From: Orobanche coerulescens
Lineage: Eukaryota; Streptophyta; Magnoliopsida; Lamiales; Orobanchaceae
NCBI GenBank assembly: GCA_033398695.1
Contig: CM065814.1
Span: 20,799,501-20,863,500, forward strand
Direction: 5' to 3'
Length of the DNA: 64,000 nt
Shown here: positions 2,253 through 63,710 of the stretch, piece by piece
Position numbering within the stretch: the stretch's first letter is position 1
How the letters are laid out: each line of letters begins with the position of its first letter
Position numbers and translations under genes: made by a program
The notes under the pieces: generated by a model
What the model was told of the DNA's origin: nothing
The model's database searches: none
The model's input: the letters and a program-made list of their open reading frames with translations, nothing else

Positions 2253-2265
2253 AAGGAGGGTAGAA
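2253..2265 (+). other. Polypurine tract of LARD
   Basis: The purine run AAGGAGGGTAGAA lies directly before the LTR start TGTAATACCCG. It would prime plus-strand DNA synthesis. The block just upstream (TTTCGGGACGAAACTT) is itself an inverted repeat and is present before the LTR of almost every gypsy element in the window. Confidence 0.85.
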
Positions 2266-2640: not shown

Positions 2641-2740
2641 GTGCCGCGGCACACCTGGGCTGAGCCGCGGCACACTGCCGAGCCCTGGGAGCGAATTTTG
2701 GGCCTGTGCCGCGGCACACATATACTGAGCCGCGGCACAC
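2641..2740 (+). repeat. Palindrome array, GTGCCGCGGCAC type (4 sites)
   Basis: CCGCGG cores start at 2644, 2665, 2709 and 2730, so the steps are 21, 44 and 21 bp. Each core sits in a full or near GTGCCGCGGCAC palindrome, and the spacers are unrelated. The array lies upstream of the likely TATA box in U3. Confidence 0.85.
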
Positions 2741-4721: not shown

Positions 4722-5238
4722 GGGAGTTTATGCAGTATTAACGACATACAGTCCATCATTAAAAATATCTTTGCAAATATATTCACCGTTTCTTTTCCTA
4801 ATAATAGCATCATCATTAAAAGAAACTGAATAACCATCACATTTTAATTTAGAAACCTAAATTAAAATTCATTTCTAAAATCGGGTACTAATAAGACATT
4901 ATTGAGGACTAATAATTTACCATTAATCTTCAACTGCACGACTCCCACTGCAACAGCCATAAGCCTGGAATAATCGCCCCAGTTGATGGTAATCTAACCC
5001 GCACTAAGCTGATTGGTTACCTAAAAACCATGCGAGTCAAACCAAACATGATCAGTGGAGCCTGAATCAACTATCCACGAAGTGGAAGAACAAGCTGCTA
5101 AATATGTTTTGACTACTAGTGCACGAGACATACCTTTCTTAAGAGCAGGGAAGTCCACTTTAAAATATTCTTTCTGAACGCACTTCTAGCACTTTCCCTT
5201 TGGCTTTGTGTTCGCCTAGGGGTGAGGAGCCTTGCTTT
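4722..5238 (-). pseudogene. copia protease region (decayed)
   Basis: On the minus strand at about 5079-5049 the motif WIVDSGSTDHV is readable, the active-site D-S-G of a copia aspartic protease. It is followed by a typical beta-rich stretch (LKINGKLLVLNNVLLVPDF). A degenerate zinc knuckle lies upstream (about 5200-5150). Stops and frame breaks are present throughout. Confidence 0.65.
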
Positions 5239-7110: not shown

Positions 7111-8982
7111 TGTAACACCCCCAGGATATCCGAGGTATATTACAGCGCCGTGAATCCCTATATGGGACCCACCAGGCTGAACAAGCATCATACTCATAGA
7201 CTCACTGATACAATGGAAAAATACCTCGTCATAAAGACGCCCGGCAAAATAATCCACCCGGTTCAACCGGTCAAACATAACACCATAATCTGTCACAAAC
7301 ATAATAAACAACAATACAATACCGACGGTTAAAAACTCTTAAGTACTCGAGTACTTCTATTAGTTTAAAGACCACAAAGGTAAAAGGATAAAAAGCAATA
7401 AGACACCACTCGTGCACAATCATCACGCACGGCCATCATCCGCATATTGGTCCAGCACCCGTTCGTCTCGATGAACCTGACCTGAAATTCATAAAATGAA
7501 TTTCCCCAAAACGGGTCCCCAGTGGGGTTAGCAATTACGCTAGTACAAGTAACCAAATGAACGACTTACATCTTACACATATAGTAATGCATGCAATCAA
7601 GAAAACATAGTTCCAAAACACTCATTTCCGGAAATGCCATAATCAAATCACATTTGTAAAAATGTACCACAATTAACCATGGACCCACAGCTTCGTGGAT
7701 CCCTACCGAGACCCCGTCGGATCTAACCCGTAGTGGTTAAAAGCAACTCGCGGTTCCACAACTTCGTGGAGACCTACAGAGACCCCGTCGGATCTAACCC
7801 GTAGTGAGTATACACACACACACATAATTTCTCATACAAAACTACTATGTCAAGATCGTAAGTTCATAAGGGTACTTGCCTCGGTTAATAGACGGTGATA
7901 CGAACGAAAAGGAAGAATCGAACACGACCGCGAAGAACCGGCGGAAATGAACCTAACGATTCGAATAACACAATCACAACCAACTCTAGACGAATACGGA
8001 AATGGAATACACCCGGAAACCCGCCTACGATTCATGTATATTTGTACCAAAAATAACAACGAGGGCGGATCACAACCAAACCCTCTCGATTCCGCAAAAA
8101 CCCACAAAATATCCATGAATCCGTAGGAAAACTAAAGATACTAACAATATTAACCGTATTCATCATGAATCCACCAACAAAACGGAACGAATCGGAAAAA
8201 AATCCCAAAACCCCCAAATTATTCGAAAATAGGGTTCTAAGAGATATTACCTTTGAATATTCAAGTACTATGATCCGTAGAACACACGTTATATTGATTA
8301 TCCGGGCTTCACAACCGAAGAAGAATGATGAAAATCAACCCCCAATTGATGAATGATTGAGAAGTTCTCCCCCCTTAATTCTCTCTCTCGTGCGCAGGTG
8401 AAGAAATGAGGGGAATGGCCGATCTCGTCTAATAAGAACGAGATTATACAGTTGACCGCATGGTGTGCCGCGGCGCAGCTGAAGTGTGCCGCGGCACAAG
8501 CCTAAAAACTGCTCCCAGGGTTCGGCAGTGTGCTGCGGCACCCGGTACAGTCGGGTTTTGGTCGCAGATGTCACACGAGTGTGCCGCGGCCCCGGACGAG
8601 TGTGCCGCGGCACTGACTTGGCACTGTGCCGCGGCACCGGATGGGTGTGCCGCGGCACACAGTACAGTTCGCTCGACCAACAACTGGAGAAATGTGTGTG
8701 CCGCGGCGCACACAACTTGTGCCGCGGCCCACACCCCCTTTGGGTCCCAAAATGGTAAAAATGATCCGGAAAGAGAATAAAAGCGATGGGAATCAATATT
8801 TGGGAAACAATAACACGAAATGGATCCACGGCAACCCCAAAACGGCGGTTCCACACAACAACAACGAGAATTAGATCAATAGATGACAGGAGAGACACAC
8901 TGAAGGATACACGAGGGTTACTACAATCGAGAAATGCACCGAAAATGAAAATACAAGGGAAAGGAAAAATGCGGATATTACA
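7111..8982 (-). repeat. 3' LTR of the 7111-15694 gypsy element (1872 bp)
   Basis: Read on the minus strand it starts TGTAATATCCGC and ends CTGGGGGTGTTACA. It is nearly identical to 13886-15694 apart from a stretch of roughly 68 bp (about 7870-7936) missing in the other copy. It holds a nine-site palindrome array (8463-8735), a TATA-like run (about 8440) and two subrepeats around 7680-7805 with the block ccgtcggatctaacccgtag. Confidence 0.93.
8463..8735 (-). repeat. Palindrome array, GTGCCGCGGCAC type (9 sites)
   Basis: CCGCGG-type cores start at 8468, 8489, 8533 (one mismatch), 8584, 8605, 8629, 8650, 8701 and 8722. The steps are 21, 44, 51, 21, 24, 21, 51 and 21 bp. Spacers are unrelated to each other. 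On the minus strand the array lies just upstream of the TATA-like sequence. The same nine sites occur at 15180-15450. Confidence 0.9.
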
Positions 8983-13885: not shown

Positions 13886-15694
13886 TGTAACACCCCCAGG
13901 ATATCCGAGGTATATTACAGCGCCGTGAATCCCTATATGGGACCCACCATGCTGAACAAGCATCATACTCATAGACTCACTGATACAACAGAAAAATACC
14001 TCGTCATAAAGACGCCCGACAAAATAATCCACCCGGTTGAACCGGTCAAACATAACGCCATAATCTGTTACAAACTTAATAAACAACAATACAATACTGA
14101 CGGTTAAAAACTCTTAAGTACTCGAGTACTTCTATTAGTTTAAAGACCACAAAGGTAAAAGGATAAAAAGCAATAAGACACCACTCGTGCACAATCATCA
14201 CGCACGTCCATCATCCGCATACTGGTCCAGCACCCGTTCATCTCGATGAACCTGACCTGAAATTCAAAAAAACGAATTTTCTCAAAACGGGTCCCCAGAG
14301 GGGTTAGCAATTACGCTAGTACAAGTAACCAAATGAACGACTTACATCTTACACATATAGTAATGCATGCAATCAAGAAAACATAGTTCCAAAACACTCA
14401 TTTCCGGAAATGCCATAATCAAATCACATTTGTAAAAATGTACCACAATTAACCGCGGACCCACAGCTTCGTGGATCCCTACCGAGACCCATTCGGATCT
14501 AACCCGTAGTGGTTAAAAGCAACTCGCGGTTCCACAGCTTCGTGGTGCCCTACCGAGACCCCATCGGATCTAACCCGTAGTGAGTATACACACACACACA
14601 CACACAATTTCTCATACAAAACTACTATGTCAAAATCGTAAGTTCATAACCGGCGGAAATGAACCTAACGATTCGAATAACACAATCACAACCAACTCTA
14701 GACGAATACAAAAATGGAATACACCCGGAAACCCGCCTACGATTCATGTATATTTGTACCAAAAATAACAACGAGGGCAGATCACAACCAAACCCTCTCG
14801 ATTCCGCAAAAACCCACAAAATATCCATGAATCCGTAGGAAAACTAAAGATACTAACAATATTAACCGTATTCATCATGAATCCACCAACAAAACGGAAC
14901 GAATCGGAAGAAAATCCCAAAACCCCCAAATTATTCGAAAATAGGGTTCTAAGAGATATTACCTTTGAAGATTCAAGTACTATGATCCGTAGAACATGCG
15001 TTAGATTGATTATCCGGGCTTCACAACCGAAGAAGAATGATGAAAATCAACCCCCAATTGATGAATGATTGAGAAGTTCTCCCCCTTAATCCTCTCTCTC
15101 TCTCGTGCGCAGGTGAAGAAATGAGGGGAATGGCAGATCTCGTCTAATAAGAACGAGATTATACAGTTGACCGCATGGTGTGCCGCGCCGCAGCCGAAGT
15201 GTGCCGCGGCACAAGCCTAAAAACTGCTCCCAGGGTTCGGCAGTGTGCCGCGGCACCCGATATAGTCGGGTTTTGGTCGCAGATGTCACACGAGTGTGCC
15301 GCGGCCCCGGACGGGTGCTCCGCGGCACTGACTTGGCACTGTGCCGCGGCACCGGATGGGTGTGCCGCGGCACACAGTACAGTTCGCTCGACCAACAACT
15401 GGAGAAATGTGTGTGCCGCGGCGCACACAACTTGTGCCGCGGCCCACACCCCCTTTAGGTCCCAAAATGATAAAAATGATCCGGAAAGAGAATAAAAGCG
15501 ATAGGAATCAATATTTGGGAAACAATAACACGAAATGGATCCATGGCAACCCCGAAACGGCGGTTCCGCACAACAACGAGAATTAGATCAATAGATGACA
15601 GGAGAGATACACTGAAGGATACACGAGGGTTACTACAATCGAGAAATGCACCGAAAATGAAAATACAAGGGAAAAGAAAAATGCGGATATTACA
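13886..15694 (-). repeat. 5' LTR of the 7111-15694 gypsy element (1809 bp)
   Basis: Partner of 7111-8982 with the same ends. It carries the same nine palindromes (15180-15450), some with private substitutions (for example GTGCTCCGCGGC at about 15315). It lacks the stretch of roughly 68 bp seen near 7870-7936 in the other copy. Confidence 0.93.
15180..15450 (-). repeat. Palindrome array, GTGCCGCGGCAC type (9 sites, second LTR)
   Basis: Site order and spacing match 8463-8735. The first site is damaged (CCGCGCCG), while the third is perfect here and damaged in the other LTR. Confidence 0.88.
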
Positions 15695-22059: not shown

Positions 22060-22432
22060 TTATGTACGTTATTAGCAATGTATAACGTACGTTATGGGGT
22101 CTTCCTAACATAAGTTAGCCCCTTGTGTAGCGTACGTTAAGGTCTTTAGGGCATGGGCCAGTTGGTGGTGGGATCGGACAAGATTCCCGCGGTGTGAACC
22201 TGGATAGCCTTTTTATAAAGCGGGTCAACGAGGTTTAACGTACGCTATAGGCTGGCGATAGCGCACGCTATGTCCAGATTATTACATACGTAAAGGTGTT
22301 GGTATAGCGTACGTAAGAGAAGACTAGGATCGAGACAGTAGGCTATTATTGGATGTTAACGTACGCTAATGATTTATAATAGAGTACACTAAGATGATTA
22401 CGTACGTAAAGCGTTGAGGCTAACATACGTAA
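22060..22432 (+). repeat. Palindrome array, TARCGYRCGYTA type, 23-bp pitch
   Basis: 12-bp sites start at 22060, 22083, 22106 and 22128; at 22236, 22259, 22282 and 22305; and at 22357, 22380, 22398 and 22421. Within each group the steps are 22-23 bp except one of 18 bp. Examples are TAACGTACGTTA, TAGCGCACGCTA and TTACGTACGTAA. Spacers differ from one another. Confidence 0.9.
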
Positions 22433-26838: not shown

Positions 26839-27229
26839 TGTAATACCCGTACTTTTATTGACTGTTTAACCTTGCCATTTTCCCTATTTCATCACTCTGT
26901 AAACTCTTGGTGATGTTGTCGATATTGTTATAGAGTTTCGTATCTTGTTTGGATCACAATCGTGTTGTTTAGACCTTGTGGAAGTGCTATGGGTCAGAGA
27001 AATAGCGCAAGCTAGGCCTAGGCTAATGCATGCTAATTCTGCTTGAGTAGCGCACGCTAGCTTTGAGCCATAGCGCGCGCTAAGGGACCAGTCAAGTCAG
27101 AACCAGTAACTCAGACTGCTTTCTGGACTGGCAGTCAATGCCCGCTAGGATTTCGTTAACGCACCTATTCGTGGTTAGTAGCGCGCGCTAACATCCGTCT
27201 GTAGCGCATGCTAACGGGATGGCGAGCAC
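26839..27229 (+). repeat. Truncated 5' LTR of the nested element
   Basis: Begins TGTAATACCCGTAC and tracks 29509 onward through the palindrome array (TAGCGCACGCTA, TAGCGCGCGCTA near 27050-27215). It stops at about 27229, where RT sequence begins. Confidence 0.85.
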
Positions 27230-29508: not shown

Positions 29509-31063
29509 TGTAATACCCGTACTTTTATCGACTGTTTGACCTTGCCGTTTTTCTTATTTTGCCACTCTGTAAACTCTTGGTGATGTTGTCGATATTGTTA
29601 TAGAGTTTCGTATCTTGTTTGGATCACAATCGTGTTGAGTAGCGCGCTAATTCTACTTGAGTAGCGCATGCTAGCTTTGAGCCATGGCGCGCTAAGGGAC
29701 TACCAAAGTCGTAACCGAACTCATACCGCTCGGATCGCGCTAACGCGCTAGGAGTTCATTAACGCACGCTATTCGTGGTCAGTAACACACGCTAACATTC
29801 ATCCGTAGCGCACGCTAACGGGCTGGTCGGCAGAGGCAGTGAGGTTGTCAGGTTTTCTGGACTATCAAGTAACGTACGCTAGTATTCGGATAGCGCACGC
29901 TATAAGAGCTGCGTAGCGCACGCTAAAATCTTTAGAACCCTATTTTTGGGAATTTTGGGGTTTTTCCTAGATTCGTCCGATTTATTCATTTTGAAGCTTG
30001 AGAACCTTGAGATTATGATGTATCTATCCCATATACATGCTTTTCCTATGATTTTATGGATTGGTTTGTGCCGTGTTCGGACTTGTGAGGGTGTGGGTGA
30101 TTTTCCAAACTCTAGTTGTTTACCCTTGTATTTTCGTGAATCGTAAACGGGTTTTGGGAGTTTCTTCGTGAATTATGAGTACGGATTATTGATTATCATA
30201 TCCCTTACAAATCGTTTAGGTGTCGAAAGCGCGTTCTTGGACCTACCGAACTCATACTCTTTTCCATTCAATTTCTCGATGTCTCAAAGGCAAGTATATA
30301 TTTATGATTATATGTTCTCGACTTTGAAAGTAAGATATATGAATGGCATGATTGTTTATACCCACTCTGGGGTGGGCCAACAGGTCCCCTGAGGGTTTCG
30401 TAGCCTTTGGTGCAATTCCACGGATAATTTGGGTTAACCACCCTAGGGCGGGCCGACGGGTCCCCTGAGGGTTCCGTAGCCTCTGGTGCGGTTCCACGGT
30501 TGATCATGTAAATATTGATGTGATGCTATGAGATTTAGTTATTCCGGAATACTAGTCTTGAATTGATGAATTGACGATTACCTTTACTTTATTGTCGAGG
30601 AGTATTGTGTTTCATACTTGATATACTTGCACTAGCTATTCGACGGCTAACCCCTTTATGGGGGAAATACTCTTTATGTATTTCAGGTTCCAGGAGAGCG
30701 GATAGGCAGGTATCGGGTCGGCATGAAGATGATGGGAAAGCGTGATACTGTGTCTTATCTCCGGTTATGTTTTGTGTTCCTCCATTCAGTGTTGTTGTAC
30801 TGGAATGGTTATTGAATACTCGAGTATTGTTTGTTTTCAGTCTTCCTTGATGTTCCAGCCTGTGTTGCCGAGGTTTTGATTCTGTACTGTGATGTATTTG
30901 GATACATTGGACATGGTTTGAATACCCTTTGTATTGTCTTTCATTTGATTGTATTTGGACCTTCTCGGTCAAGTTTTATAGTTCCGCGTATGATTACCCT
31001 TGTGGGTCCCACGGTGGGGTTCACGACGCTTTAATATACCCTGAATAACTTTGGGGTGTTACA
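29509..31063 (+). repeat. 3' LTR of the nested element (1555 bp)
   Basis: Starts TGTAATACCCGTAC and ends TTGGGGTGTTACA. It holds a palindrome array (29640-29925), two subrepeats around 30361-30500 with the block gggtt.cgtagcct.tggtg, and the GCTAACCCC...TTTCAGG block near 30645-30690. Confidence 0.9.
29640..29925 (+). repeat. Palindrome array, TAGCGCACGCTA type, 23-bp pitch
   Basis: Site starts include 29640 (shortened), 29662, 29760, 29783, 29806, 29870, 29891 and 29914. Steps within trains are 21-23 bp. Perfect or near sites are TAGCGCACGCTA and TAACGTACGCTA. Confidence 0.88.
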
Positions 31064-38369: not shown

Positions 38370-38887
38370 GGCGATCGCCTTTTCTGTATTATAATAATCG
38401 GGCGATCGTCTTTTAGCACATGGGCCTGTCCCCTCAAAGTCTGCAGGAGTTGCTGGCAGTCAACTATGCGGTCCAATGGGGAGCTTACACGCGTCCTGAG
38501 TTACTGACACGGGTGGTCCCACTGACAACTTTCGGCGCGCATGCTGGTAGGTGAGGTAGGTGACAGGCTGTGGTCAAAGGTCTTGTCTGTCAGCAAAAGA
38601 TCTTATCTGCTAGCGAAGATCTTGTCAGCGCCTTTGGTGGATCTGCACGTGGGTGTTTTTCTGAGATCCAGTTCTTGATGGTTTTGGCGGGCGATCGTCT
38701 CTGCTCGGGGCGTAGGTCGATTACCCTTAGCCGGTCACTAGGTTAGATCGCCAGCTGCCAAAGGGCGATCGCCTTGGGAGTCGATCGCCAGGCACCTGAT
38801 AGTGGTCTGATATCTTCGACATGGCGAGCTAGCCATAGTTTGACTGATGTTGACTTGGTCGCTCGGCCTTATAGTCGATCGCCTGTC
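38370..38887 (-). repeat. GGCGATCGCC-type palindrome cluster
   Basis: CGATCG cores at 38372, 38403, 38692, 38766, 38782 and about 38876, plus near forms at 38718 and 38745. Several are full GGCGATCGCC. Spacing is irregular (31, 26, 27, 21, 16 bp for neighbours). The cluster lies upstream of the TATA box on the minus strand. Confidence 0.75.
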
Positions 38888-38912
38888 GGGATGAATAAAT
38901 CGTGACACAACA

Positions 38913-38928
38913 ATTGCCCCCCAGCTCG
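38913..38928 (-). other. Polypurine tract
   Basis: On the minus strand GAGCTGGGGGGCAAT lies directly before the 3' LTR. Confidence 0.75.
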
Positions 38929-39263
38929 CTCATACGTTGGAAACGTGGGGTGAGGTGGCTCTCTTGGCGATCGCTGAACTTTTGACGAGCGACTTCGTGT
39001 TTAATCGAATCGCGATCGTCTTTGAGTGATATACTGGGTTCGGACGACTGGTTGGTCATTGAATCGTGAGGAAAAACAATGGGCGTTGAAAAGTCTCCGC
39101 GCACGTGTCGGGCTTCTATTGGAGGACGCCAACGGTCATTAATGACTCCTCGGCTGACGCGTCCTTGTAAAGATGCGTACGCGGGTCTCGAGGGGTCAAT
39201 GCGTCGTTTGAGATCCGACCCCCGAGGTTTCCCCTTATTGCAAACGAGTCCCCTGCCTTCTCC

Positions 39264-39270
39264 TATAAAA
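39264..39270 (+). promoter_or_regulatory. TATA box of the opposite-strand gene
   Basis: CCTATAAAAGGCG lies 149 bp upstream of the start codon at 39413. A GT-rich donor candidate (AGGGTAAG, about 39374) between them could mark a leader intron. Confidence 0.6.
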
Positions 39271-39412
39271 GGCGCGGTCTTTGCGATCTTACTCACGCGT
39301 ACTTTTTGGAGGAAGAAGGACTTGCTGCCGAATTTTCAAGATCTTAGTGCCGATCGTCGTTCGATTTCACTTTAGGGTAAGAAAAATCCTTTTCTCCTTT
39401 TACATTTCGAAA

Positions 39413-42003: not shown

Positions 42004-43253
42004 GGCGCTTCATTTTTGACGTTTTAGCTTGCTTACTTGTAGTTTTGTAGCTTTCTTCCTTGTAGTTTTGTAGTTTTCTTTTGTAGAACATAGGCCTTCG
42101 GGCGACCATGTACTTTTGATCTTCTCAAGCAATGAACTGAATGTTTGATTATCTTCGATTACTTGAATGAATGGTTATTTTTGAGTCTTTGTTTGACTTT
42201 GTACAAATGTGTGAGGAGAGATCGTTGCGAGGGTAGTTCCAAATGAATTGATAAACTCATAAAGACAACTTTCTACAACAAATTCGATCGCTGCACTACA
42301 TCTTTTAAAATGACGATCTCCGTATGTGGTTGAATAGCGACGATCGTCGTGTAGGTAGTCCGCACTCTTATTGCCCCTTGTTTTTATTCACTTTAGTGGA
42401 GGTAAGGGGATGAAAATAATTCCTTGAGTGAGCGGTCTTCAACTTTGTCGAATCCTCGGGGACGGTCGTCCATCTTGAGGAACCGTGCACGATCGCGGAG
42501 TTCGATGGTCCGACTCCTTGATCATGTCTTGATGCGCGAAGACATTGAGTGTCTCGTGACTCACTTTATTATGAGGGTCCTCTGTTAGGCTGCGCCTCGC
42601 CTCGTATTTAAACGAAGGGCGTGCGGTCTTGGTCTAGAGGAGTCCTTGCGCGGGGCAGCGTCGGATCAATCAACTCCACGCCCGCGGCTGGTTAGCTCTG
42701 CTTCCACCTCGGTCAGCCATGGAGATGGCCGACCTCGACGGTGTACGTTGAGACGGGGGTTGTGGCACATCGCATTGTCCGAGTTCACCATGTTAGGTGA
42801 TGAACCTTTGAGGGCGAGCGATCGTGTCCACTGATTTATTTTGGAGGGCCCTCAGACTACGCCGGCCTCGTATTTAAACGAAGGGCGGGCGATCTTGGCC
42901 TAAAGGGACCTTGCATGGCCTAAGCAGTCGGTTCCATCGACCACCAGACCATGTCGCACTCTTCCACCTTGGATCGTCATGTAGATGCCGACCTTCGACG
43001 GTGTACGTTGTGCGGGGGAGGCGATCTCGTGCCTTAGTCCATCATGTTAGACGGTGAACTGTAGATGGCGATCGAGTCCTCCGGTTTCTTGAATAAGGAG
43101 GGAGATCGGGGAGACTTCCGAGGTCTCCTTTTCTTGATTGAAGCATGTGGAGACGGTCGCCGAGGTTGATATAGGGGTCGGCTCGTATGAGCTTTCCAGC
43201 CTGTTTTGCGTTCGACTCGGACGATCGTTTATAGAGAATGGTAGGGGCTTCGG
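42004..43253. other. Non-coding part of the Tat-type element with a 266-bp tandem repeat
   Basis: Two imperfect units begin with CTCGTATTTAAACGAAGGGC at 42601 and 42867. They share the order TTCCACCTYGG, ATGTAGATG/ATGGAGATGGCCGACC, CGACGGTGTACGTTG and CATGTTAG. No gene is seen on either strand. 42120-42140 has AATGAA-type signals that may end the + strand gene. Confidence 0.7.
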
Positions 43254-44174
43254 CTAAACCAATAAGCCGTCCAACTTGCCCTCCTCGAACAATCTCCAGA
43301 GCTGTTTGAGGAGGTCGCGGCATTTGTTGGTGCTGTGGCCGGGACTCTTATGGTAGGCACAATATTGATTGTTGTCCAGGTGACTGTGGTCCCTTATTGC
43401 CTTTGGCTTTTTGAGCTCCTCGTGCCCCTTGATGGCATAGAAAATATGTGCCGGAGTTCGGTTGAACGTATGGAGGAGATGGGCTTCCATGTCCTCGAAA
43501 GCCTTGAGATCTCCGGGTGGCTTGGCGATCGCCTTCTTTGCTTTGGCGATTGCTATCTTCTGGACAGGAGGTGGCATTTCTTCGCCTAGGCGGAGGGTGA
43601 GTAGCCTTTGCCTGGCCAGAAAGTTGGCAGCCTTAGCGCAGAAGATCGCGTAAGTCGGGGGAATATCCTTGGAGAGATGTCTAAACATGGGAGAGTGTCC
43701 GTGGAATCCCCCCATGACTGAATAGAGAGCGAGCTCGTCACTGACGGGTTCGCCGGTGAGGATGATTTCGTCTACCCGGTCGATGTAATCCGCGTCGGTT
43801 TCGTCCTTCCCCTGCTTGATTTTTATCATGCGGTGGGGGCCTTCTGGTCTGGCGACCTTGTTGGCGAAGTATGACGTGAAGTTATTCGCCAGTTTCTTAA
43901 AAGAGGTGATTGATCGTGGTGGTAATGAGACGTACCACCTGTGGGCCAGCTCGCCCAATGTCAGCGGGAAGATCCGGCACTTGGTTGCATCAGATGCCCC
44001 ACACCCAGTCATGTAAATTCGGAATTTACTCAGGTGGGTTTCGGGGTCCGATCTCCCCTCATACAGAGGTGTTTTGGGAGGAGCGATCGTTGGTTGTATG
44101 GGGGCAAGCTCGATGTGGACCGCGAGTGGCTCGGTCGGCCGCGATCTTCTTCTTGGTGCTTGCCCGGTGTCCAA
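43254..44174 (-). CDS. Tat-type gag (capsid and zinc finger)
   Basis: An open frame of 306 codons from ATG at 44174 to a stop at 43254. The capsid core shows YEGRSDPETHLSKFRIYM, FPLTLGELAHRWYVSLP, SFKKLANNFTSYFANKV and RMIKIKQGKDETDADYIDRV. The zinc finger is CAYHKSPGHSTNKC (C-x2-H-x4-H-x4-C), typical of Tat/Athila rather than chromovirus gag. N-terminal frames at 44635-44181 are shifted but look like the Arg/Ser/Pro-rich front of the same protein, so the true start may be upstream and the gene may be broken there. Confidence 0.85.
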   Translation of the reverse strand: MDTGQAPRRRSRPTEPLAVHIELAPIQPTIAPPKTPLYEGRSDPETHLSKFRIYMTGCGASDATKCRIFPLTLGELAHRWYVSLPPRSITSFKKLANNFTSYFANKVARPEGPHRMIKIKQGKDETDADYIDRVDEIILTGEPVSDELALYSVMGGFHGHSPMFRHLSKDIPPTYAIFCAKAANFLARQRLLTLRLGEEMPPPVQKIAIAKAKKAIAKPPGDLKAFEDMEAHLLHTFNRTPAHIFYAIKGHEELKKPKAIRDHSHLDNNQYCAYHKSPGHSTNKCRDLLKQLWRLFEEGKLDGLLV

Positions 44175-44860
44175 GTGCTCTCATCTCGTCGAGTGGCGTT
44201 GTATGGCGGCCATCGCCGTGCTTTGGCCTGCTCGCGGCTCGGCGCTCGGAGCGGTGCCGAGGCGATTAGTCTGATCCCACAGCGATCGGGCGGAGTCGGA
44301 TGGATGACTGCGTTGGTGTGAGGTGGGTAGGCCGAACTCCGTGACGGATTCGGGTTCGTCTTTTCGAGTTGGAGACAGAGTGCCCTTGGCCGCCGGGATG
44401 GGTCGCGCCCCAAGCGATCGAATATGGATCCGTCCGGCCGTGCGAGAGCCTTTCCTCGCGAATTGGGGCTTTCGACGATCGCTTGTTCGGCAGTTGAATT
44501 TCCGTTTTCCCATGCGGCGGATGATCGAGGAGTTATTGCGGGCGACGCACATGCTTTCGTCGCTCCTCCGGGATGGCCATAGCCTCCTCGATCATCCCTC
44601 GGTTTGGGCCCGATCGAGTGAGAGGTTGGGGCCATCTCTCGGATGTGGGATCGAGAGTCTCGCGTTCTGCGGCTTCCCCTGTCGTTGGTGAGGTTCGGAT
44701 TGAGCCGGATATGGTGTCCGGTTCGGAGAGCAGCTTTCTTGATGTGCGGCGGATGTCATGATTACAAGGTTTTCTTTGAAGTGCGGTGAGTGTCACTTCA
44801 AGTATATGCCAGAAACAGTGAGTGTTCTTGGGACGGTAGAAATAAAAGTTTGAGGTTAGA
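44175..44860 (-). pseudogene. Tat-type gag N-terminal region (frame-broken)
   Basis: Low-complexity Arg/Ser/Pro-rich frames overlap in two phases (44635-44030 and 44552-44181) ahead of the capsid frame. No domain is recognised. The best reading is one gag leader region with indels. Confidence 0.45.
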
Positions 44861-44861
44861 T

Positions 44862-44879
44862 CCCCTTCCTCTAGCGCCA
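44862..44879 (-). other. Primer binding site (TGGCGC type)
   Basis: On the minus strand TTGGCGCTAGAGGAAGGGG follows the LTR end. TGGCGC openings are usual for Tat-group elements. I do not assign the tRNA. Confidence 0.7.
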
Positions 44880-44880
44880 A

Positions 44881-46067
44881 TGGTTGCTACCCAAAATATT
44901 ATCCGGAGATAGATATTCTTTGGAATGGATGGGATAGCAAACAAATGCAAGAGCACTTAGTGAGAAAGATAAATAACACAAGATTTGCGGGTTGTTAGTC
45001 CCGGGCTTGAATGCTCTCACGAGATATTATTAATACCAATATTCGGGATACAAGTACTAATGTAAGAATACAATTACAATGAGTGTAAAGATTCTTGTTA
45101 TCTTAGCTAGTGAGCGTGTAGATTGCCGGAAGAACCAGATTTGATGCTCTGTGAGTTCTTGTAACAAAGGAGATGAACAGTCGCGGCGGTGAGAGATCGA
45201 CCGTCTCTCACGGCGAGTATTTAGCTGGATGCTTGGGCTCTTGGGCTTATGAATCCCTTGGAATCTGTCTAGTGGAGACTTAACATACATCGATCTTACG
45301 GACGAGAGATTTAGAGAGAGAAGTCCTGAGATGGATTCCTGAGATAGCCGGAGCTTGATGATATGTATGTTCTTCGGTATTTCCGTGAATGTATCGGAAT
45401 GTGAGAGAATGAGTTACGAGGCATAAGTCGAGAATGAATTCGGGCCGTTGGTGGAATGAATTTCAACCGTAGGATGAGTCAATTAGAACCTTTTTCTGTA
45501 GGAGGAGGTTCTCTATTTATAGAGCTTGGATACGCCGGCGATCGCCTTTTCGTATTATAATAATCGGGCGATCGTCTTTTAGCACATGGGCTGTCCCTCA
45601 AAGTCTGCAGGAGTTCTTGTGATCAACTATGCGGTTCATAGGGAGCTTACACGCGTCCCGAGTTGGCCGACACGGTGGTCCCACCGACAACTTTCGGCGC
45701 GTCTTTGGTAGGTGAGGTAGGTAAACCGTGGTGAAGGTCTTGTCACAAGAAAAGATCTTATCTGCTAGCGAAGATCTTGTCAGCGCCTTTGGTGGATCTG
45801 CACATGGGTGTTTTTCTGAGATCCAGTTCTTGATGGTTTTGACGGGCGATCGTCTCTGCTCGGGGCGTAGGTCGATTGCCCTTAACCGGTAACTAGAGTA
45901 GATCGCCAGCTGCCAAAGGGCGATCGCCTTGGGAGTCGATCGCCAGGCACCTGATAGTGGTCTGATATCTTCGACATGGCGAGCTAGCCATAGTTTGACT
46001 GATGTTGACTTGGTCGCTCGGCCTTATAGTCGATCGCCTGGCGGGATGAATAAATCGTGACACAACA
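44881..46067 (-). repeat. 5' LTR of the Tat-type element (1187 bp)
   Basis: Partner of 37701-38912 with several short replacements and one-base losses (for example near 45286-45340 and 45660-45745). It has the same TATA box and CGATCG cluster (about 45541-46035). Confidence 0.92.
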
Positions 46068-51994: not shown

Positions 51995-53928
51995 TGTAAC
52001 ACCCCCAAGTTATTCAGGGTATATTACAGCGCCATGAGCCCCACCGTGGGACCCACAAGGCTAAACATACGCGGAACTACAAAACTTGACCGAGAAGGTC
52101 TACATACAATGGAAAGAAAGACGATACAAATGGTATTCAAAACCACAATCAATGAAACCATATACATCACTGCACAAATCAATACCTCGGAAACATAGGC
52201 CGGAACAACAAGGAAAGCAAATACAATACTCGAGTATTTAAAATCCATTCCAAAGACAACAACCGAAATGGAGGAATCCAAAAAGATAACCGGAGACAAG
52301 ACACAGTATCACACTTGCCCATCATCTTCATGCCGACCCGATACCCGCCTGTCCGCTCTCCTGGAACCTGAAATACATAAAAAGTATTTCCCCCATAAAG
52401 GGGTTAGCCGTCGAATAGCTAGTGCAAGTATATCAAGTATGAAACACAATACTCCTCGACAATAAAGTAAAAGTAACCGTCAATTCATCAATTCAAGACT
52501 AGTATTCCGGAATAACTAAAATCTCAAGACGTATGTGAATGCCGTAGAAACGGTTCACATATCATACGCCGTTATATGTAGGAATGCCGTCAAAACGGTT
52601 CGTTCATTACATGCCAACAATACATATATGAATGCCGTAAAAACGGTTCGTTCATAATATGCCATCAATATATCTATGAATGCCGTAAAAATGGTTCGTT
52701 CATATCATACCATCAATATTCTTACTTTCAAAGTCGAGAACGTACAATCATAAATGTATACTTGCCTTTGAGACATCGAGAAATCGAACGGAAAAAGGGT
52801 ATGAGTTCGGTAGGTCCAAGAACGCGCTTCCGGAACCTAAACGATTCGCAAGGAAATGATGATCAATTATCCATACTCGAAACTACACGAAGAAATTCCC
52901 GAAACCCGTCTACGATTCATGAAAACACACGGATAAACAACTAGAGGTTGGAAAATCGCCCAAAATCTCACAAGTCCGAAAACGGCACAATCAAATCCGT
53001 AAAAACGTAGGAAACGCATGCATACGGTATAGATACATCCTAATCTCAAGGTTCTCAAGCTTCAAATCGGATAAATCGGACGAATTTACGAAAAACCCCA
53101 AAATCCAATACAATATTCAATGTGTTCTTGAATAATCCTTCAATAGTCCAATGAATAATCAAACATGCCGATAATCATGCGTATATCACTTCATACAACA
53201 TGATTTTAACACCCAAAACATCATTACTCAACCCAAAATCGAAATCCAAGGTGATGAAGAAATTACCTCTTGAAGATCCAAGCACTATGATCCAAAGAAT
53301 ACGCGATAGATCGACGATCCGGGCTTCACGATCGAAAAGAAATGAAGAAATTCAAACCCTCAAGTGATGGATGATGAAAGGTTTCTCTCCTCAAGCTCTC
53401 TCCCTCGATGTGTTCAAGAAAAGTGGAGAAATGATCTGATTTTGCTGAAAAAAACGTAATTATACAGTTGACTGTATCGTCTGCCGCGGCTCAGCAGCAG
53501 TGTCTGCAGCACGAGCCCAAAAATTGCTCCTGTGGGCTCGGTAGTGTGCCGCGGCACGAGTCTGACAGTTTTGGCGAATCACGGAAAATGAGAGTGACTT
53601 AGCTATTTCGACCATAACTCCCTCATCTGGACTCTGATTAACTCACCGTTTGAACCATTGGAAAGCTAACTTGATGCTTTATAATATTGCAAAGATTCAG
53701 AATTTTTGGAGTTTCCAAAAATTAATGGTGATCTAACAAAGTCGAACTCGTACGTGGAAAAGTCGCTAAAGAACACGGAATTCAACAGAACGACACCGAA
53801 ACGAACTCGGATGACAAAAAGTGTAGAATTAATCATTCTCAGGATGACGAAACGGTCCCAAGCAAGTCGCCAAAACGGACTTTCGCCAAAAAAAAAAATT
53901 ACCGGAAATCGAATTTGCGGATATTACA
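51995..53928 (-). repeat. LARD 3' LTR (1934 bp)
   Basis: Ends are as in the left-edge LARD. The palindrome array (53484-53554) has only two good CCGCGG sites plus a CTGCAG remnant, unlike the three sites in the partner LTR, although the sequences around it are almost the same. Four hairpin subrepeats lie at 52548-52720. Confidence 0.93.
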
Positions 53929-53941
53929 TTCTACCCTCCTA
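53929..53941 (-). other. Polypurine tract
   Basis: On the minus strand AGGAGGGTAGAA before the LTR, preceded by GTTTCGGGACGAAAC. Confidence 0.85.
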
Positions 53942-56184
53942 AAAAGAAGTTTCGTCCCGAAACTTAAAACAACTAGGGAGAGCAATATCCCGCCAGGAAA
54001 ACTCAACGAGATACACAAGAAACACGTAACTTACGCCCAACGGCGAAACGTTACAAGCAACACAACAATACATTACCCGAAGGTAATCCAAGCCGATTAC
54101 AAGTAAATACGAATCATAATGCTGAAGGCTCGACAAAAATACCAATACATCACAATGGCACGAAAACCCCTCGGTAGAAGTTGTATATCATGATGGCACA
54201 GCCGAATGACCCAAAGTCAGAATCATCACAATGTCTGAGATCTCAAAGAAGCAAACCTCATTGTCGGACATACCCCTCGGCGTATGAACAACCAGCCGCA
54301 AATCATCGGACATATCCAATACAACCTGGACTACGAACGACCAAACAATAAGGCTCAAGAGGGACATCACAGTACGCCCGATCCAGAAATGTGTCCGTGC
54401 ACATGTCCACCCCGTATACGAAATCCAGAATATACGTGTGACAATGTACCTAATTAGCCTCAAGAACTATGTCTCGTGTGCACCGTCCAATGCGGAAACA
54501 TCCACGCATGACCATCGAGTGCCTAGCTAAAAATCCTACACATAACCAATCGGCACGCAGACATGATTCCAGATATGCCATGATACAGCATGACAACGAA
54601 ACTCAAAGGATAAAATACCCATTACGGATCATACGACTCACCAAGTGAACGATGACACACGAATAATGAAAGATCGACACGACCAACGATATTCAAAACA
54701 ACCATTCTGGGATCAGAATCCCTAAGGACCGATTAACACGGCAATAACCACAACACCACAATTCGGGAAATCCTCCACCCTCAACGATCACAAAATTACC
54801 GAGTTTACCAGAATAATAGTGGGCTGCCTTGAGTCAGCCAACACGACAATAATAACTCCAAGATGGGCACTATCCTCGGCGATCCCCATTCAATATCTCG
54901 ATTGTCTTCGAACGACCAATCGATAACGACTCAACGGATGGGAACTATCTTCGACAGTCCCAATTCAATACTTCGGTTACCTTATAACGGCAACTCGATA
55001 ACAACGGTACAACGGATGTCTTGTCACACTTAAATAAGTTACCGATGATGAAGATGAAATTCGAATACATCAATGCCTTCAATCGGCCGTTTACGAACAA
55101 CAATAACATTTGGCATAATTTTTCGACGGGTGTCGTATCAAACAATCCCCTGATATCAATACAATCATAAGGAGGCCAAGTCTCGAAATGATACACACAT
55201 TCGTACATCTACACGATAACATTAGTCTCATTGATTAGTACGAGTATAAAACTTGTCTCGATATCAATACAACGAACTGTTACCAATTCAGTTGATTTCG
55301 TTTTAGGAATTCCTCAGTCTTGACCAAGTTAATCTACGAACCCTTCAACCTTAACCGCAACACAACAGTCATAATTCACGATCAAACATCATATCTTATT
55401 GTAAAACGAAGGATTAATAATCAACAGGTTCGATGACGACCAATATCAATACCACCAAACAACAAACTCAATCATTTCACCATATCTCGACTAATCACAG
55501 TCTGAACAATCCAACTCAAACACTTACAAATCCTGTCCACACTACGAGTCGAAATATGATGATCATATCAGCAACCAATTAGAACCAATAATAAGGGTCT
55601 AAATATTCCAAACTCAATTCTTAAATACGAATTGATAAGGTTCCCTTCTCGTAAATCCATCGTTAAAATTTACTTATGACCGTCATCAATTCGAATCATC
55701 CGACTGGTTCAAAACAATAGATAATCCTATTAAAAAGGTTATCAAATAGTCTAATCATTCGACTTGAACATTTGCTCCATACGTATGGGCTTCCAAATTC
55801 AGAGATGAATAATAATCTCATCAAACTCATAATCACATTCGTATTCCTATACGAATATTATTTCAAACATATAGTTTAGCTCTAGATATGAATATTCCAT
55901 ATTCATTTTCAAAACATCAACACTTCTTAAAAAAATTCATCACCTCGTATAATTCAAGAGTTCTTCAAGAACACAAAATATCCGAAACCCCGTTCAGAAC
56001 AGCATATCCGAGGTATATATCTCCATGTTACCATTTTCTTCATCATGCCATTCATACAACCTTAAGAATCGCAACAATACCGTTATCATCATATGAAGAA
56101 GATCTCAATAATCATATCAACATCCGAAACCTCTTATTACAATTCCAATAAATCTCGTATAACATTATCACATGATACCATAAT
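53942..56184 (-). other. Non-coding LARD internal sequence
   Basis: Homologous to 1-2252 in reverse. Both copies have many stops in all frames and no conserved long frame, so the conservation is that of a transposed non-coding segment. It contains repeated ATYCCCATCCGTTG phrases about every 70-130 bp. Confidence 0.8.
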
Positions 56185-57590
56185 TGTAACACCCCAGATC
56201 CTCCTGGGAATATTACACGCCGTAAACCCATCTCACAAGGATTTACCAGGCTAGGCACAATTTTCCACGTCATTTCAAAAATGCCAAAAAGACCGATGAC
56301 GGTAATATTTTTCAAATACAAAAAAAATCATTTTCCAAATACCGTCAAAACGATCGAGGCCAAAATGCCAAAAACTCAATTTAGGGAATCGGTTTTACAA
56401 AATAAAATTCAGTTGGCAAAATACCAAAAGCCATTTCAAAATACTCACGCAACGGATAAAAGTACAGTCCAATTTATGCACTTTCATTGAAATAAGACGA
56501 ACATCAAAATACACGATTCCCAACATACTCCCTCCCAAGTAGTAATCCAAAAAAAAAAAAAAATGAACCACTATCAAAGGGATACAAGGATTACCTTGTA
56601 TGGACTAACCACGAAGAAGAATAATTTGAACTCCATTCCAAGAATCATCAAAAACTTCAAGAACAATACTTAAATCCGAGCTCTCCATCTTAATCTTGTT
56701 TAAGAGAATCATCTCTCAATGTTTAGGGACTTCAAGTACTTCCCAAGGTTCTCTCTATTGACTGACGGAAGGCAAATGGACAAAATGCCTCTCAGCACTC
56801 GTCTATCCTCTCTATAAAACACATCACTAGCGCGCGCTAGACCTTATATTTAGCGTGCGCTACAGGACTAGCGTGCGCTATCCTTCCTTGATAGCGTGCG
56901 CTATCGGGCAGTGCAGAAGCTACTACATTGATTCGAAATTCATCTAACGTACGTAATGCCCATGCATTAGCGTACGCTAACAGGCGTTGACTTGCTACAG
57001 TGAAATGCTCAGTAGCGTGCGCTATTCTTCGACCTTAACGCGCGCTAAGCGTCGTTGACTTGCTACAGTATCGTGCCCCCACATGCCGAAAGCATCCGTG
57101 ATTACCGGGATTCCTTTGACCGATATGGAATTAGCGTGCGCTAATCATACGGTTTTAGCGTGCGCTAGCTCTACACGACAAACTCTTGCTGACCTTATTT
57201 GGACATGCGTCGAACATGGCCGGGTCCACCCGCCTAAAACTAAGATTCCATTATTGGCGATCTGATGTTAGCGTGCGCTAACCAACATGCGTTAGCGTGC
57301 GCTAACTGTACCAAGTAGCGTGCGCTAACTGTACCAAGTAGCGTGCGCTAATGAAACACTTATTGCGTGCGCTATCGTTACTGTGCCAAGCCATATTCAG
57401 CTATCCCCAACCAATATCTCGACATGCCCATCGAACATACGATACAATGAATACATATACGCATTCAATAACATTATCAAACGTCCACAACGTTCTCAAG
57501 CACAAACATCCATCAACGATATCCAACATATAAATCCAAAATCACCAAGATAACCAAGAATTATCGAATAATCCAAACAACATACTTACA
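56185..57590 (-). repeat. Second, different LTR-like segment inside the LARD
   Basis: On the minus strand it runs from TGTAAGTATG to ATCTGGGGTGTTACA and is followed by ATTATGGTATCA, a primer-site-like word. It has a 15-site palindrome array (56828-57374) and a TATA-like GTTTTATAGAGAGG after it. No 5-bp duplication was found at its borders (ataat and ggtct). Confidence 0.65.
56828..57374 (-). repeat. Palindrome array, TAGCGTGCGCTA type, 15 sites with 23-bp pitch
   Basis: 12-bp sites start at 56828, 56851, 56869, 56892, 56945, 56968, 57013, 57036, 57132, 57156, 57269, 57293, 57316, 57339 and about 57363. Nearest steps are 23, 18, 23, 53, 23, 45, 23, 96, 24, 113, 24, 23, 23 and 24 bp. The larger gaps are near multiples of 23. 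Spacers are mostly unrelated, except one repeated CTGTACCAAG. Confidence 0.93.
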
Positions 57591-58000
57591 GGTCTGTGAA
57601 GTCGATGATGTCCCGTGGTACTAGCATGCGACTCCCAAACAAAGTCTCAACACAATACCGATACACGCTAATATCGAAATTAGCAATTTGACAAAATCTC
57701 AAGGAAGGGTTCACATCCGTAACCACAGTCACGACTTCTTCTCCTTACATCCAACATTCTAAAGGGCACACACGTGCGGAAGTATAATCCAAATCGCACC
57801 TTCTCGAAGTGACTAATTCCAAAGAATACCAAACTAAAAACGAAACGGTCAAGAAAATACAAGAAGAGTGAGAGGACTTACAAGTACCGGTCGCACTATG
57901 ATGATGGCAGAGTAGTGATACTGTGGGCAAATGACGACTCAATCGACCCAAAAGACCGACAACCTAGGTATCCATAAACCTAAGCTCTGATACCATATTC
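57591..58000 (-). other. LARD 5' leader with primer site
   Basis: On the minus strand, five bases after the LTR, TGGTATCAGAGC (57984-57995) is the tRNA-Met primer site. GTAAGT (donor candidate) lies at 57881-57876. The first 120 nt are homologous to the leaders of the coding elements at 13885 and 63706, which shows a shared origin. Confidence 0.85.
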
Positions 58001-59938
58001 TGTAACACCCCCAAGTTATTCAGGGTATATTACAGCGCCATGATCCCCGCCGTGGGACCCACAAGGCTAAACATACGCGGAACTACAAAACTTGACCGAG
58101 AAGGTCTACATACAATGGAAAGAAAGACGATACAAATGGTATTCAAAACCACAATCAATGAAACCATATACATCACTGCACAAATCAATACCTCTAAACA
58201 TAGTAGGAACAACAAGGAAACTGAAATACAATACTCGAGTATTTAAAATCCATTCCAGTACAACAACACTGAAATGGAGGAATCCAAAAAGATAACCGGA
58301 GACAAGACACAGTATCACACTTGCCCATCATCTTCATGCCGACCCGATACCCGCCTGTCCGCTCTCCTGGAACCTGAAATACATAAAAAGTATTTCCCCC
58401 ATAAAGGGGTTAGCCGTCGAATAGCTAGTGCAAGTATATCAAGTATGAAACACAATACTCCTCGACAATAAAGTAAAAGTAACCGTCAATTCATCAATTC
58501 AAGACTAGTATTCCGGAATAACTAAAATCTCAAGATGTATGTGAATGCCGTAGAAATGGTTTGTTCATATCATACGCCGTGACATGTAGGAACGCCGTCA
58601 AAACGGTTCATTCATTACATGCCAACAATACATATATGAATGCCGTAAAAACGGTTCGTTCATAATATGCCATCAATATATCTATGAATGCCATAAAAAC
58701 GGTTCGTTCATATCATACCATCAATATTCTTACTTTCAAAGTCGAGAACGTACAATCATAAATGTATACTTGCCTTTGAGACATCGAGAAATCGAACGGA
58801 AAAAGGGTATGAGTTCGGTAGGTCCAAGAACGCGCTTCCGGCACCTAAACGATTCGCAAGGAAATGATGATCAATTATCCATACTCGAAAATACACGAAG
58901 AAATTCCCGAAACCCGTCTACGATTCATGAAAACACACGGATAAACAACTAGAGGTTGGAAAATCGCCCAAACTCTCACAAGTCCGAAAACGGCACAATC
59001 AAATCCGTAAAAACGTAGGAAACGCATGCATACGGTATAGATACATCCTAATCTCAAGGTTCTCAAGCTTCAAATCGGATAAATCGGACGAATTTACGAA
59101 AAACCCCAAAATCCAATACAATATTCAATGTGTTCTTGAATAATTCTTCAATAGTCCAATGAATAATCAAACATGCCCATAATCATGCGTATATCACTTC
59201 ATACAACATGATTTTAACACCCAAAACATCATTACTCAACCCAAAATCGAAATCCAAGGTGATGAAGAAATTACCTCTTGAAGATCCAAGCACTATGATC
59301 CGAAGAATACGCGATAGATCGACGATCCGGGCTTCACGATCGAAAATAAATGAAGAAATTCAAACTCTCAAGTGATGGATGATGAAAGGTTTCTCTCCTC
59401 AAGCTCTCTCCCTCGATGTGTTGAAGAAAAGTGGAGGAATGATCTGATTTTGCTGAAAAAAAACGTAATTATACAGTTGACTGCATCGTGTGCCGCGGCA
59501 CAGGCCCAAAAATTGCTCCCAGGGCTCGGTAGTGTGCCGCGGCTCAGCCGAAGTGTGCCGCGGCACAGGGTACAGACGGTTTTGGCCGAATCTAGAAAAT
59601 GAGAGTGACTTAGCTATTTCGACCATAACTCCCTCGTCTGGACTCCGATTGACTCACCGTTTGAACCATTGGAAAGCTAACTCGATGCTTTATAATATTG
59701 CAAAGATTCAGAATTTTTGGAGTTTCCAAAAATTAATGGTGATCTAACAAAGTCGAACTCATACGTGGAAAAGTCGCTAAAGAACACGGAATTCAACAGA
59801 ACGATACTGAAACGAACTCGGATGACAAAAAGTGTAGAATTAATCATTCTCAGGATGACGAAACGGTCCCAAGCAAGTCGCCAAAACGGACTTTCTCCAA
59901 AAAGAAAATTACCGGAAATCGAATTTGCGGATATTACA
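58001..59938 (-). repeat. LARD 5' LTR (1938 bp)
   Basis: Partner of 51995-53928. The palindrome array has CCGCGG cores at 59493, 59537 and 59558 (steps 44 and 21). Four hairpin subrepeats lie at 58540-58715. Confidence 0.93.
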
Positions 59939-61519: not shown

Positions 61520-63705
61520 TGTAATATCCGTACCTTTGTTTTTTTAGCAATTTTTCATTTTTGACGCTTGTCTATTTTTATCGACTCGCCTGTAACCGTT
61601 TCGACATTTTCAATCTATTTTGTTCTTGGAGTTTTTTCATTTGGACGAGTTTCGGAGATATTTTTACGTAATTTTGTTTTGGGTATGTATTGTCCCATGT
61701 ATGATCGATTCTCGTAAGACTCTTTCGATTACATCATTTATTTGTTTACATGAGTTCCTATGGTTGAGTTATTCATGTTGTGAGTTTCGGTTTGATAATC
61801 CGACGTTGTATCGTGATGTTCGGATGTTTGGGCCATTTTGTAATTTCCTATAAGTTTAGGGAATTTTATCTTCTTTGTCGTATTTCGGATTCTCCGGTAG
61901 TCGGAATTATATTTTCTTTCAAAACATAGCTTCATCGTCGTGAATATTTTGTGTTTACGCTTATGGGTTCTGTCCTTGTGTTGCATCCCGACTTCGTACC
62001 GTCCTGTGCACCAAACTGTATTCAGCAGTGTTGAGTTGCTGCATGCATAATGTACGTTATGCATGCTTTCTTGCGTGCGCTACCGATGCCTTCATAACGT
62101 ATGTTACTCCCTGGTGATAACGTACGTTATGGTCCTCAGTGTTTTCGACAGTGGCTTCTGCCCAGTTTTTGCCAAGTACTTACGTACGTTAACTCGCGGG
62201 TCACGGCTGTTACGTACATAAGTTCCTTATAGCGTATGCTAACTGTCTAGTGTAGCGTACGCTATCGGCCTCAGCAAATTGGGCAGATTGTTCTGCCGAG
62301 CCATTACATACGCTAACACTTGAGTGTTACATACGTAAGAGGCGTAGCATACATTAACATCAGCATGTTAACGTACGTAATGAGTGGTCAGTTTTTAAAA
62401 ACCTGAGCAGACCCTTCATCGCGTCACTCTTTCAATTTTCTCCCTTTCGTCCGCGGTGAGAGTTCTCCAAGAGATTCGAGTTATTCTTCAAGATTTGTCC
62501 GTGGAGTTCCTTGAAAGTTTATCATCATCATAATCATCTTCCTCCGTCCGAATCCAAGGTATTTGACTTAGAACCCTACCTTTATCTATTTTGGGGGTTT
62601 TCCGGGATTTGTTGAGATTTAACTCAAATTGTTCGTTTATGTTGTGATATTTCTTATCGATTATTGTTGTTTGGTGATTCACAATCCATTTCCGTCGTGT
62701 TTAATCCGTGGATTGTTGATTTGGGGAGGTTTTGTGAAAACCCTCGCCCGTATTCGTCGTCCGTGTGTGTTTATGATTGTTAATCGGGGTTGTGGGCATA
62801 GTCCGTTCGATTATTGTTATTGTTTAGGACTGAGTTGTGTTAATTTCTCGTTTAGAAACGGTCGTGTTCCATCCGGGTAATTCCTAGTCGTTGTTTGTTC
62901 CCATTTCGTCGAAGATGTCTCAAAGGCAAGTACTTTACATTTGTTTGCATATTCTATTATATGATTTATGGCTTCCCGTTTATGTTGTGGATGTGAATGC
63001 GTATGTTTATCCAGGGATAGTCTGAGGGGGCCTCTGGGGATATGTAGTGCTGTGTGTATGCGTATTGCGAACTGGGGTTAACCACCCAGGGATGATCCGA
63101 CGGTGCCTTTGCGGGGTGCGGTGGCCGAGAGTCTCGTACCAGCGGTTAACCTTTGAAATGTTTTGTTGGAGAACCATGTTTTGTGCGTGTGCACCGTAAT
63201 ATTCCGGAATATAAATGTTTTCTAAATTAATTTTGGCGCATATTTCATCTGATTAGATTGGTAGTTCAAATTGATTGTACTTGCATTGGCAGTTGTCGCT
63301 AACCCCTCAAATGGGGGAAATACTTTTGTATTTCAGGTACAGGTCTTGGAGGCGAACGAGCATGCGGACAGTACGAGGATGATGGGAAAGGGTGATTCTG
63401 TTCAATGGTCATTCGTTGATGTCATGTCTTTTACATTTTATTAATCATGTCGTTGCTTCAGTACTCGAGTACTTCCTTTTTGTGAACATTGTAATTGTTG
63501 AGTACCCAATTTGGGGTTGATTTAACATTGCATTGCACTATCAAGTTCGGTTTACTTATTTTGTTTGTCTTGGATTGAAAAGTCGTTCGTATATTGATGA
63601 TGTCTATCACTATTGTCATGTCGAGTTTGTGTGTTAGCCTGGTGGATTCCGAGGGATGGGGTCCACGGTGCTGTAATATGCCCTGAATGTCTCGGGGGTG
63701 TTACA
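61520..63705 (+). repeat. 5' LTR (2186 bp)
   Basis: Starts TGTAATATCCGTACC and ends CTCGGGGGTGTTACA. It has a palindrome array at 62048-62380, a subrepeat zone near 63000-63160, and the GCTAACCCC...TTTCAGG block near 63298-63338. Confidence 0.92.
62048..62380 (+). repeat. Palindrome array, TARCGYRCGYTA type
   Basis: Sites start at 62048, 62071, 62095, 62118, 62181, 62211, 62231, 62254, 62304, 62327, 62345 and 62369. Steps within trains are 23, 24, 23; 20, 23; and 23, 18, 24 bp. Forms include TAACGTACGTTA, TTACGTACGTTA and TAGCGTACGCTA. Confidence 0.9.
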
Positions 63706-63710
63706 GAATA

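Follow-up and report, generated by a model that had tools for sequence, protein, structure and literature searches.

The window analysed here is a 64,000-nucleotide stretch of Orobanche coerulescens DNA (contig CM065814.1, positions 20,799,501 to 20,863,500), and all window positions are counted from its first letter. The palindrome array under study lies inside element A (51995-59938), which is on the minus strand and has LTRs of 1.94 kb with 95% mutual identity and a tRNA-Met-type PBS. The following features were annotated in this region:

51995..53928, minus strand: 3' LTR of element A, with class II palindromes (GTGCCGCGGCAC) upstream of TATAAT; TSD CTTCT
53448-53557, minus strand: the class II palindromes of this 3' LTR
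56173..56180, minus strand: PBS-like sequence TGGTATCA beyond the 3' end of the inner LTR
56185..57420, minus strand: LTR-derived stretch bearing the focal array, its 3' end (...GGTGTTACA) at 56185
56810..56819, minus strand: degraded TATA-like box TTTTATAGAG, 8 bp beyond the last site
56828..57374, minus strand: focal class I array, 15 TWRCGNNCGYWA sites, 11 with a CA centre along the LTR
58001..59938, minus strand: 5' LTR of element A, with class II palindromes at 59490-59566 upstream of TATAAT, followed by the PBS TGGTATCAGAGC

The stretch 56185..57420 is homologous to positions 4386-5059 of a relative, L028, which carries TTATATAAG at the place aligned with the TATA-like box of the window. 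The 5' end of this LTR was not located, and 57420 marks no more than the limit of the alignment. A preliminary description of this DNA had placed the array in an LTR, and this holds in that the stretch is LTR-derived, but it lies outside the two LTRs of element A. In its own direction, element A consists of its LTR, PBS and leader, then the 3' end of a second LTR with a PBS-like site (56185), and then the interior. The part from the interior to the 3' LTR is common to a second copy at 1-4301, and in L023 an interior related to that of element A adjoins an LTR end related to the inner LTR. Element A looks chimeric, and its inner LTR may be an internal promoter.

The class I site, a 12-mer, occurs 15 times in strict form (TWRCGNNCGYWA) on the minus strand at 56828-57374. 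In 2000 dinucleotide shuffles of the same segment the mean was 0.06 sites and the maximum 1, and a chance origin of the array was accordingly rejected. The commonest word is TAGCGTGCGCTA, in which five bases on each side are mirrored about a TG centre; this centre (CA in the LTR direction) is found in 11 of the 15 sites. Successive steps are 23, 18, 23, 53, 23, 45, 23, 96, 24, 113, 24, 23, 23 and 24 bp. Of the fifteen palindromes on a 23-bp pitch previously described, the fifteen sites were recovered and 9 of the 14 steps are of 23-24 bp, but 13 sites are imperfect palindromes, with full symmetry restricted to those at 56828 and 56968. Likewise, larger gaps had been said to fall near multiples of 23, which is true of 45 and 113 (within 2 bp) but not of 53 and 96, and one step is of 18 bp. 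Distinct 11-bp spacers showed 27.8% mutual identity, against a mean of 26.0% and a maximum of 27.0% in 200 shuffles. They hardly align between units, which agrees with the earlier proposal of a selected array rather than tandem copies; lying slightly above all 200 shuffles, they nevertheless keep a little common descent or bias. The statement that spacers are mostly unrelated needs one exception, since positions 57293-57351 are a genuine short tandem duplication within the array.

Class I arrays in the window and the genome

Four other class I arrays were located in the window:

22083..22409, plus strand: class I array, TATATA 35 bp downstream
27048..27190, plus strand: small class I array of 3 strict sites, TATA not found
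29760..29925, plus strand: class I array in an LTR starting at 29509, TATA not found downstream
62071..62380, plus strand: class I array in the 5' LTR (61520-63706) of a Ty3/gypsy element, upstream of TTTTTAAAAACC

The last of these has TG or TA centres only, its one asymmetric centre being TG, and its LTR is followed by a region coding for protease, RT and RNase H, of the kind found in the coding copy L031-L043-L032 described below. In the whole 3.65-Gb genome, exact TAGCGTGCGCTA was counted 507,111 times in forward and 510,633 times in reverse orientation (1,017,744 in total), while its reversed control was found 56 times (33 + 23). The four RY centres (AC, AT, GC and GT) between TAGCG and CGCTA summed to only 768 occurrences genome-wide (control 221). 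Two samples of the genome were then used: 20 stretches of 10 kb, taken from six chromosomes at round coordinates within their first 17 Mb, a choice that is not truly random, and 12 stretches of 2.5 kb chosen for plus-strand TAGCGTGCGCTA hits, which favours strongly polar arrays. At least one strict site was present in 11 of the 20 10-kb stretches. All sampled sequence together contained 31 arrays of at least three sites, holding 257 sites, of which 5 had no YR centre; the class I centre is nearly always pyrimidine-purine. Searches for the same site pairs in IMG/VR contigs and in prokaryote contigs gave none, and a Ty3/gypsy protein piece searched against IMG/VR gave no confirmed locus.

Elements of two superfamilies were found to carry these arrays. 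The coding copy L031-L043-L032 has an array in both LTRs, which are 96% identical over the 1.34 kb compared, and codes in order for RVP_2, RVT_1, RT_RNaseH_2, Integrase_H2C2 (weak, 19.6 bits against a cut-off of 25.1) and, at the 3' end, Chromo (25.2 bits, cut-off 25.1). This domain order, together with a long LTR and the tRNA-Met-type PBS TGGTATCGGAGC, fits a Ty3/gypsy chromovirus, probably of the Del/Tekay lineage. An RT search gave Tanacetum, at about 41-63% identity over most of the query, among the best named matches in the 120 listed of 7993 scored. A separate family comprises L021, L010, L038, L039 and L040. L021 is a gag-only element with a copia gag (PF14223). Its junction CA/ATTGG/TATCGGAGC differs from the Sirevirus junction by one base, and its sequence features suggest that the family is Sirevirus-like Ty1/copia. 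When the palindromes were masked, 23 array regions fell into seven components without mutual similarity at E 1e-4; in the largest component, the regions are linked by sequence downstream of the arrays, apart from one link upstream. The same word is thus present in chromodomain Ty3/gypsy and in Sirevirus-like Ty1/copia elements whose sequences are otherwise unrelated.

Analysis of the 31 arrays revealed that 107 of 226 adjacent gaps measure 23-24 bp (null mean 7.6, maximum 17), and the 23-bp peak proposed as a check on the focal array is present in arrays of other families. Centres were counted in the direction of transcription in 23 oriented arrays, with CA found 154 times, TA 40, CG 18 and TG 9. 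This count omits 8 of the 31 arrays, in which no TATA box was found, keeps the focal array and that at 29760 (no TATA match, oriented by LTR ends) and takes the two LTRs of one element as two arrays. Exact pairs at 23-24 bp were in the same direction in 37 cases and inverted in 2 in all sampled sequence, and 8 to 1 in the 200 kb sampled irrespective of hits. Polarity is not absolute, because 23,975 inverted CA-TG pairs at this distance exist genome-wide and because CA and TG centres are split 2 to 2 in L035 and L041.

The position of the TATA box was assessed in the 25 arrays that could be oriented by centre alone, six being not orientable in this way. In 17 of them TATAWA followed within 80 bp on the proper strand (distance 11-64 bp), and in 6 it was on the opposite strand of that segment; upstream it was found in none of the 25 on either strand, and random 80-bp pieces contained it in 8.7% of cases (610/7000). 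In 8 of the 25 arrays it was not found within 80 bp downstream. These results extend to most of the oriented arrays the early remark that the focal array ends, on the minus strand, just upstream of a TATA-like box, which is degraded in that copy.

Conservation of sites and pairing of their halves

Site and spacer columns were compared between related elements. In the copia family, 93.1% of site comparisons were identical (5704/6129) against 75.9% of spacer comparisons (15233/20079), as calculated between elements other than the reference and with L038 and L039, a probable LTR pair, taken as one; counted as two elements, they gave 93.4% against 77.4%. Twelve sites of the focal array align in register with L028, with identities of 90.5% in site columns (143/158) and 56.5% in spacer columns (178/315). 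The same contrast was observed for L033/L042 (96.0% vs 85.0%), L034/L042 (96.6% vs 87.0%) and L035/L041 (95.8% vs 83.9%), but there was hardly any for L033/L034 (96.5% vs 95.5%); the alignment of L031 with L023 (51.7% vs 42.9%) was too poor for this test. CpG dinucleotides were kept in 94.6% of cases in the sites, 67.5% in the spacers and 83.3% outside the array in the copia family. The corresponding values were 95.4%, 79.3% and 77.4% in a second family, and 96.2%, 58.1% and 2/9 in a third, in a count that treated L038 and L039 as separate. Apart from the sites, some non-palindromic pieces between them are strongly conserved at 56983-57090 and in L028 (ACTGTAGCAAGTCAAC and CGGCATGTGGGGGCAC, minus strand), and these are possibly sites of other factors.

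The contrast between sites and spacers led us to reject plain tandem duplication as the main cause of the arrays. Neutral growth of a functionless array by copying of a 23-bp unit would account for the local exact copies at 57293-57351, for an extra unit in L010b and for the excess of spacer identity over shuffles. This excess is small, however, sites are conserved and spacers are not, and the same word occupies the same place in unrelated families, so that we regard such an origin as very improbable.

Departures from the consensus were tabulated by half-site in 221 sites. At positions 3/10, changes in one half only gave 27 A.C and 7 G.T combinations among 50 changed sites, and at positions 2/11 they gave 22 A.A and 10 T.T. 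Two protein contacts with double-stranded DNA would be expected to give one-sided changes of this kind. Both halves were changed at positions 3/10 in 16 sites against 4.5 expected (p 3e-8, with sites that are non-independent of one another) and at positions 2/11 in 4 T-A cases against 1.6 expected. Paired changes above chance indicated that the halves do not vary independently of each other. This led us to give somewhat more weight to a different explanation, in which the palindromes act as RNA. Either the 3'-terminal U3 copy of the transcript or an antisense or read-through RNA would fold, and the stems would feed small-RNA silencing, a role already proposed for the palindromes of maize Sireviruses. 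The focal array folds somewhat better than its shuffles (z -2.7), only one in 100 of which folds as well. A single RNA strand would account for the CA polarity, and RNA pairing could also explain the paired changes. In addition, small-RNA hotspots at the palindromes of maize Sireviruses are mentioned in passages of two papers (PMC10760457, PMC5311732) that cite Bousios 2016. On the other hand, the A.C, A.A and T.T combinations would break the stem, silencing would not select for retention of the sites, and the fixed position relative to TATA is left unexplained. We consider an RNA role improbable.

Class II palindromes and the search for an encoded regulator

A second palindrome, GTGCCGCGGCAC, defines class II. 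Besides the copies in the LTRs of element A, the following arrays were found in the window:

2641..2738, plus strand: class II array in an LTR of the second copy related to element A
8465..8730, minus strand: class II array of GTGCCGCGGCAC and near variants at a 21-bp pitch, upstream of TATAAT
15181..15445, minus strand: class II array in the other LTR of the Ty3/gypsy element at 7-16 kb

The array at 8465..8730 lies within an LTR of that Ty3/gypsy element, a coding one whose chromodomain match is below the cut-off (20.1 vs 25.1 bits). In most LTR copies of the window that carry it, GTGCCGCGGCAC is directly upstream of TATA; the copy at 2266-4301 has no evident TATA box. Genome-wide there are 101,126 occurrences of GTGCCGCGGCAC (control 26), and its commonest spacing is 21 bp, with 13 of the 52 gaps shorter than 200 bp among the matches listed. 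Different words in a similar layout are therefore found among elements of one genome. A third palindrome, GGCGATCGCC, is also enriched. Together with close variants it is scattered through the interior and LTRs of the LTR element at 38370-45919, also near a TATA box, and it was seen in L009, L012, L015 and L026; having no fixed pitch, it is not claimed as an array. Overlapping CTCGAG/GAGCTC palindromes form a local cluster in L018 (1150-1560).

Open frames were scanned in elements of both classes. Their matches were to gag, protease, RT, RNase H, integrase, SH3 and chromodomain families or to a zinc knuckle, the remaining ones giving two weak unrelated families or no match, and no extra regulator was recognised among them. 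This result bears on a special case of the protein reading set out below, in which a VANC-like trans-factor encoded by one autonomous family would bind the arrays and lift silencing, the other families parasitising it. According to passages of PMC5735166, the VANC-binding motifs of VANDAL transposons are short and family-specific and lie densely, all in one orientation, in non-coding regions, a likeness to the present arrays, and the two palindrome classes with their different pitch resemble diverged specificities. The VANDAL elements are DNA transposons, though, and their motif is the 9-base AT-rich YAGTATTAY, read by an element-encoded binder. Given that no such gene was recognised in the scanned frames and that copia and gypsy use the word alike, we consider an element-encoded factor of this kind improbable too, marginally more so than a role as RNA.

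Proposed function and comparison with known systems

Our preferred reading, to which we give a probability of about two in three (0.68, lowered from 0.70 by the non-independence of the halves), is that the arrays are promoter-proximal U3 arrays read by a trans-acting protein, sequence-specific and probably dimeric, which would activate LTR promoters or relieve their silencing. The recognition site would be the 12-bp TARCG-YR-CGYTA, a double-stranded DNA word with two 5-bp half-sites flanking a flexible pyrimidine-purine step. Sites would be stacked mostly at 23-24 bp, the array ending about 10-65 bp before the TATA box, and the bound proteins might recruit transcription factors and/or prevent methylation from closing the CpG-rich U3. 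What we infer from these patterns is that a protein binds, that it is a dimer, that it activates or counters silencing and that it comes from the host; the effect could be either activation or protection from silencing. One protein would serve several unrelated LTR families, gypsy and copia. Because two superfamilies share the word, a host factor or a single common trans-factor is favoured, and a binder encoded by the host, or provided in trans by a single family, is more likely than one encoded separately by every element. Several points count against this protein reading, among them that the polarity is odd for a symmetric dimer, with CA polarity hinting at an asymmetric complex, and that a pitch of 23 bp is no whole number of helical turns. 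To our knowledge, none of the consensus sequences of NAC, BZR, SPL, CAMTA and other factors seemed to suit both half-sites and all centres.

A broader proposal, which we put forward tentatively and hold to be somewhat short of an even chance, is that a single trans-acting protein, either a host protein or a shared anti-silencer encoded by an element, reads about a million polar CG-YR-CG sites, copia and gypsy elements of one plant lineage having each built the same phased array before TATA, and that it would be a common switch for much of the genome's retrotransposons. If one factor did act on many LTR promoters of two superfamilies, it would offer a handle on a driver of genome expansion in this plant. 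The putative binding word is defined well enough for a search for the binder.

Repeated activator sites in U3 upstream of TATA have precedents in the 21-bp repeats of HTLV-1 and the BII boxes of Tnt1, which differ from class I arrays in having few copies and other sequences. Literature searches for the class I 12-mers gave no plant occurrence, as judged by titles and the beginnings of abstracts. Among the matches listed, taken mostly from outside the subscription literature, there was no plant report of the class I word, or of one word common to copia and gypsy.

The layout itself has a counterpart in plants. The preliminary description knew of no named plant element so arranged, and this must be corrected, since Sirevirus LTRs have family-specific CpG palindromes upstream of TATA (PMC2829016). 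In the sections of that paper considered here (Bousios 2010), the Sirevirus RMs are palindromic, present in 8 to 32 copies per element and located mostly in the LTR's upper half, and the TATA box follows the CpG island after 37 bp on average; 12 of 13 RMs have a CGG-CCG core, Tnd-1 being an exception, and classic Ty1/copia elements lack them. Class I resembles them in being a CpG palindrome with many LTR copies upstream of TATA, and the copia element L021 has the Sirevirus junction CA/ATTGG/TATCAGAGC bar one base. In contrast, the core is CG-YR-CG in class I and CCGCGG in class II, with no CGG-CCG, and none of the 13 RMs equals TARCG-YR-CGYTA. The 23-bp pitch, the polarity and the sharing with Ty3/gypsy elements, to which part of the class I hosts belong, also depart from Sirevirus RMs as described there.

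Among Ty3/gypsy elements, Cruz 2014 (PMC4029996) reports 5' CpG islands in grass Del LTRs and none in eudicots, the group to which the present plant probably belongs, as judged by Tanacetum among its best named RT matches. The present elements are like Del chromoviruses in having long LTRs with a CpG-rich, variable 5' region; palindromes are mentioned nowhere in that paper. According to the parts of these sources considered here, the palindromic CpG layout upstream of TATA (Sireviruses) and the 5' CpG islands (grass Del LTRs) are already known; the use of one word in both superfamilies, its number, its pitch, the centre rule and the polarity look new. The idea of Sirevirus palindromes is hereby extended to chromoviruses, and the function of such palindromes becomes testable.
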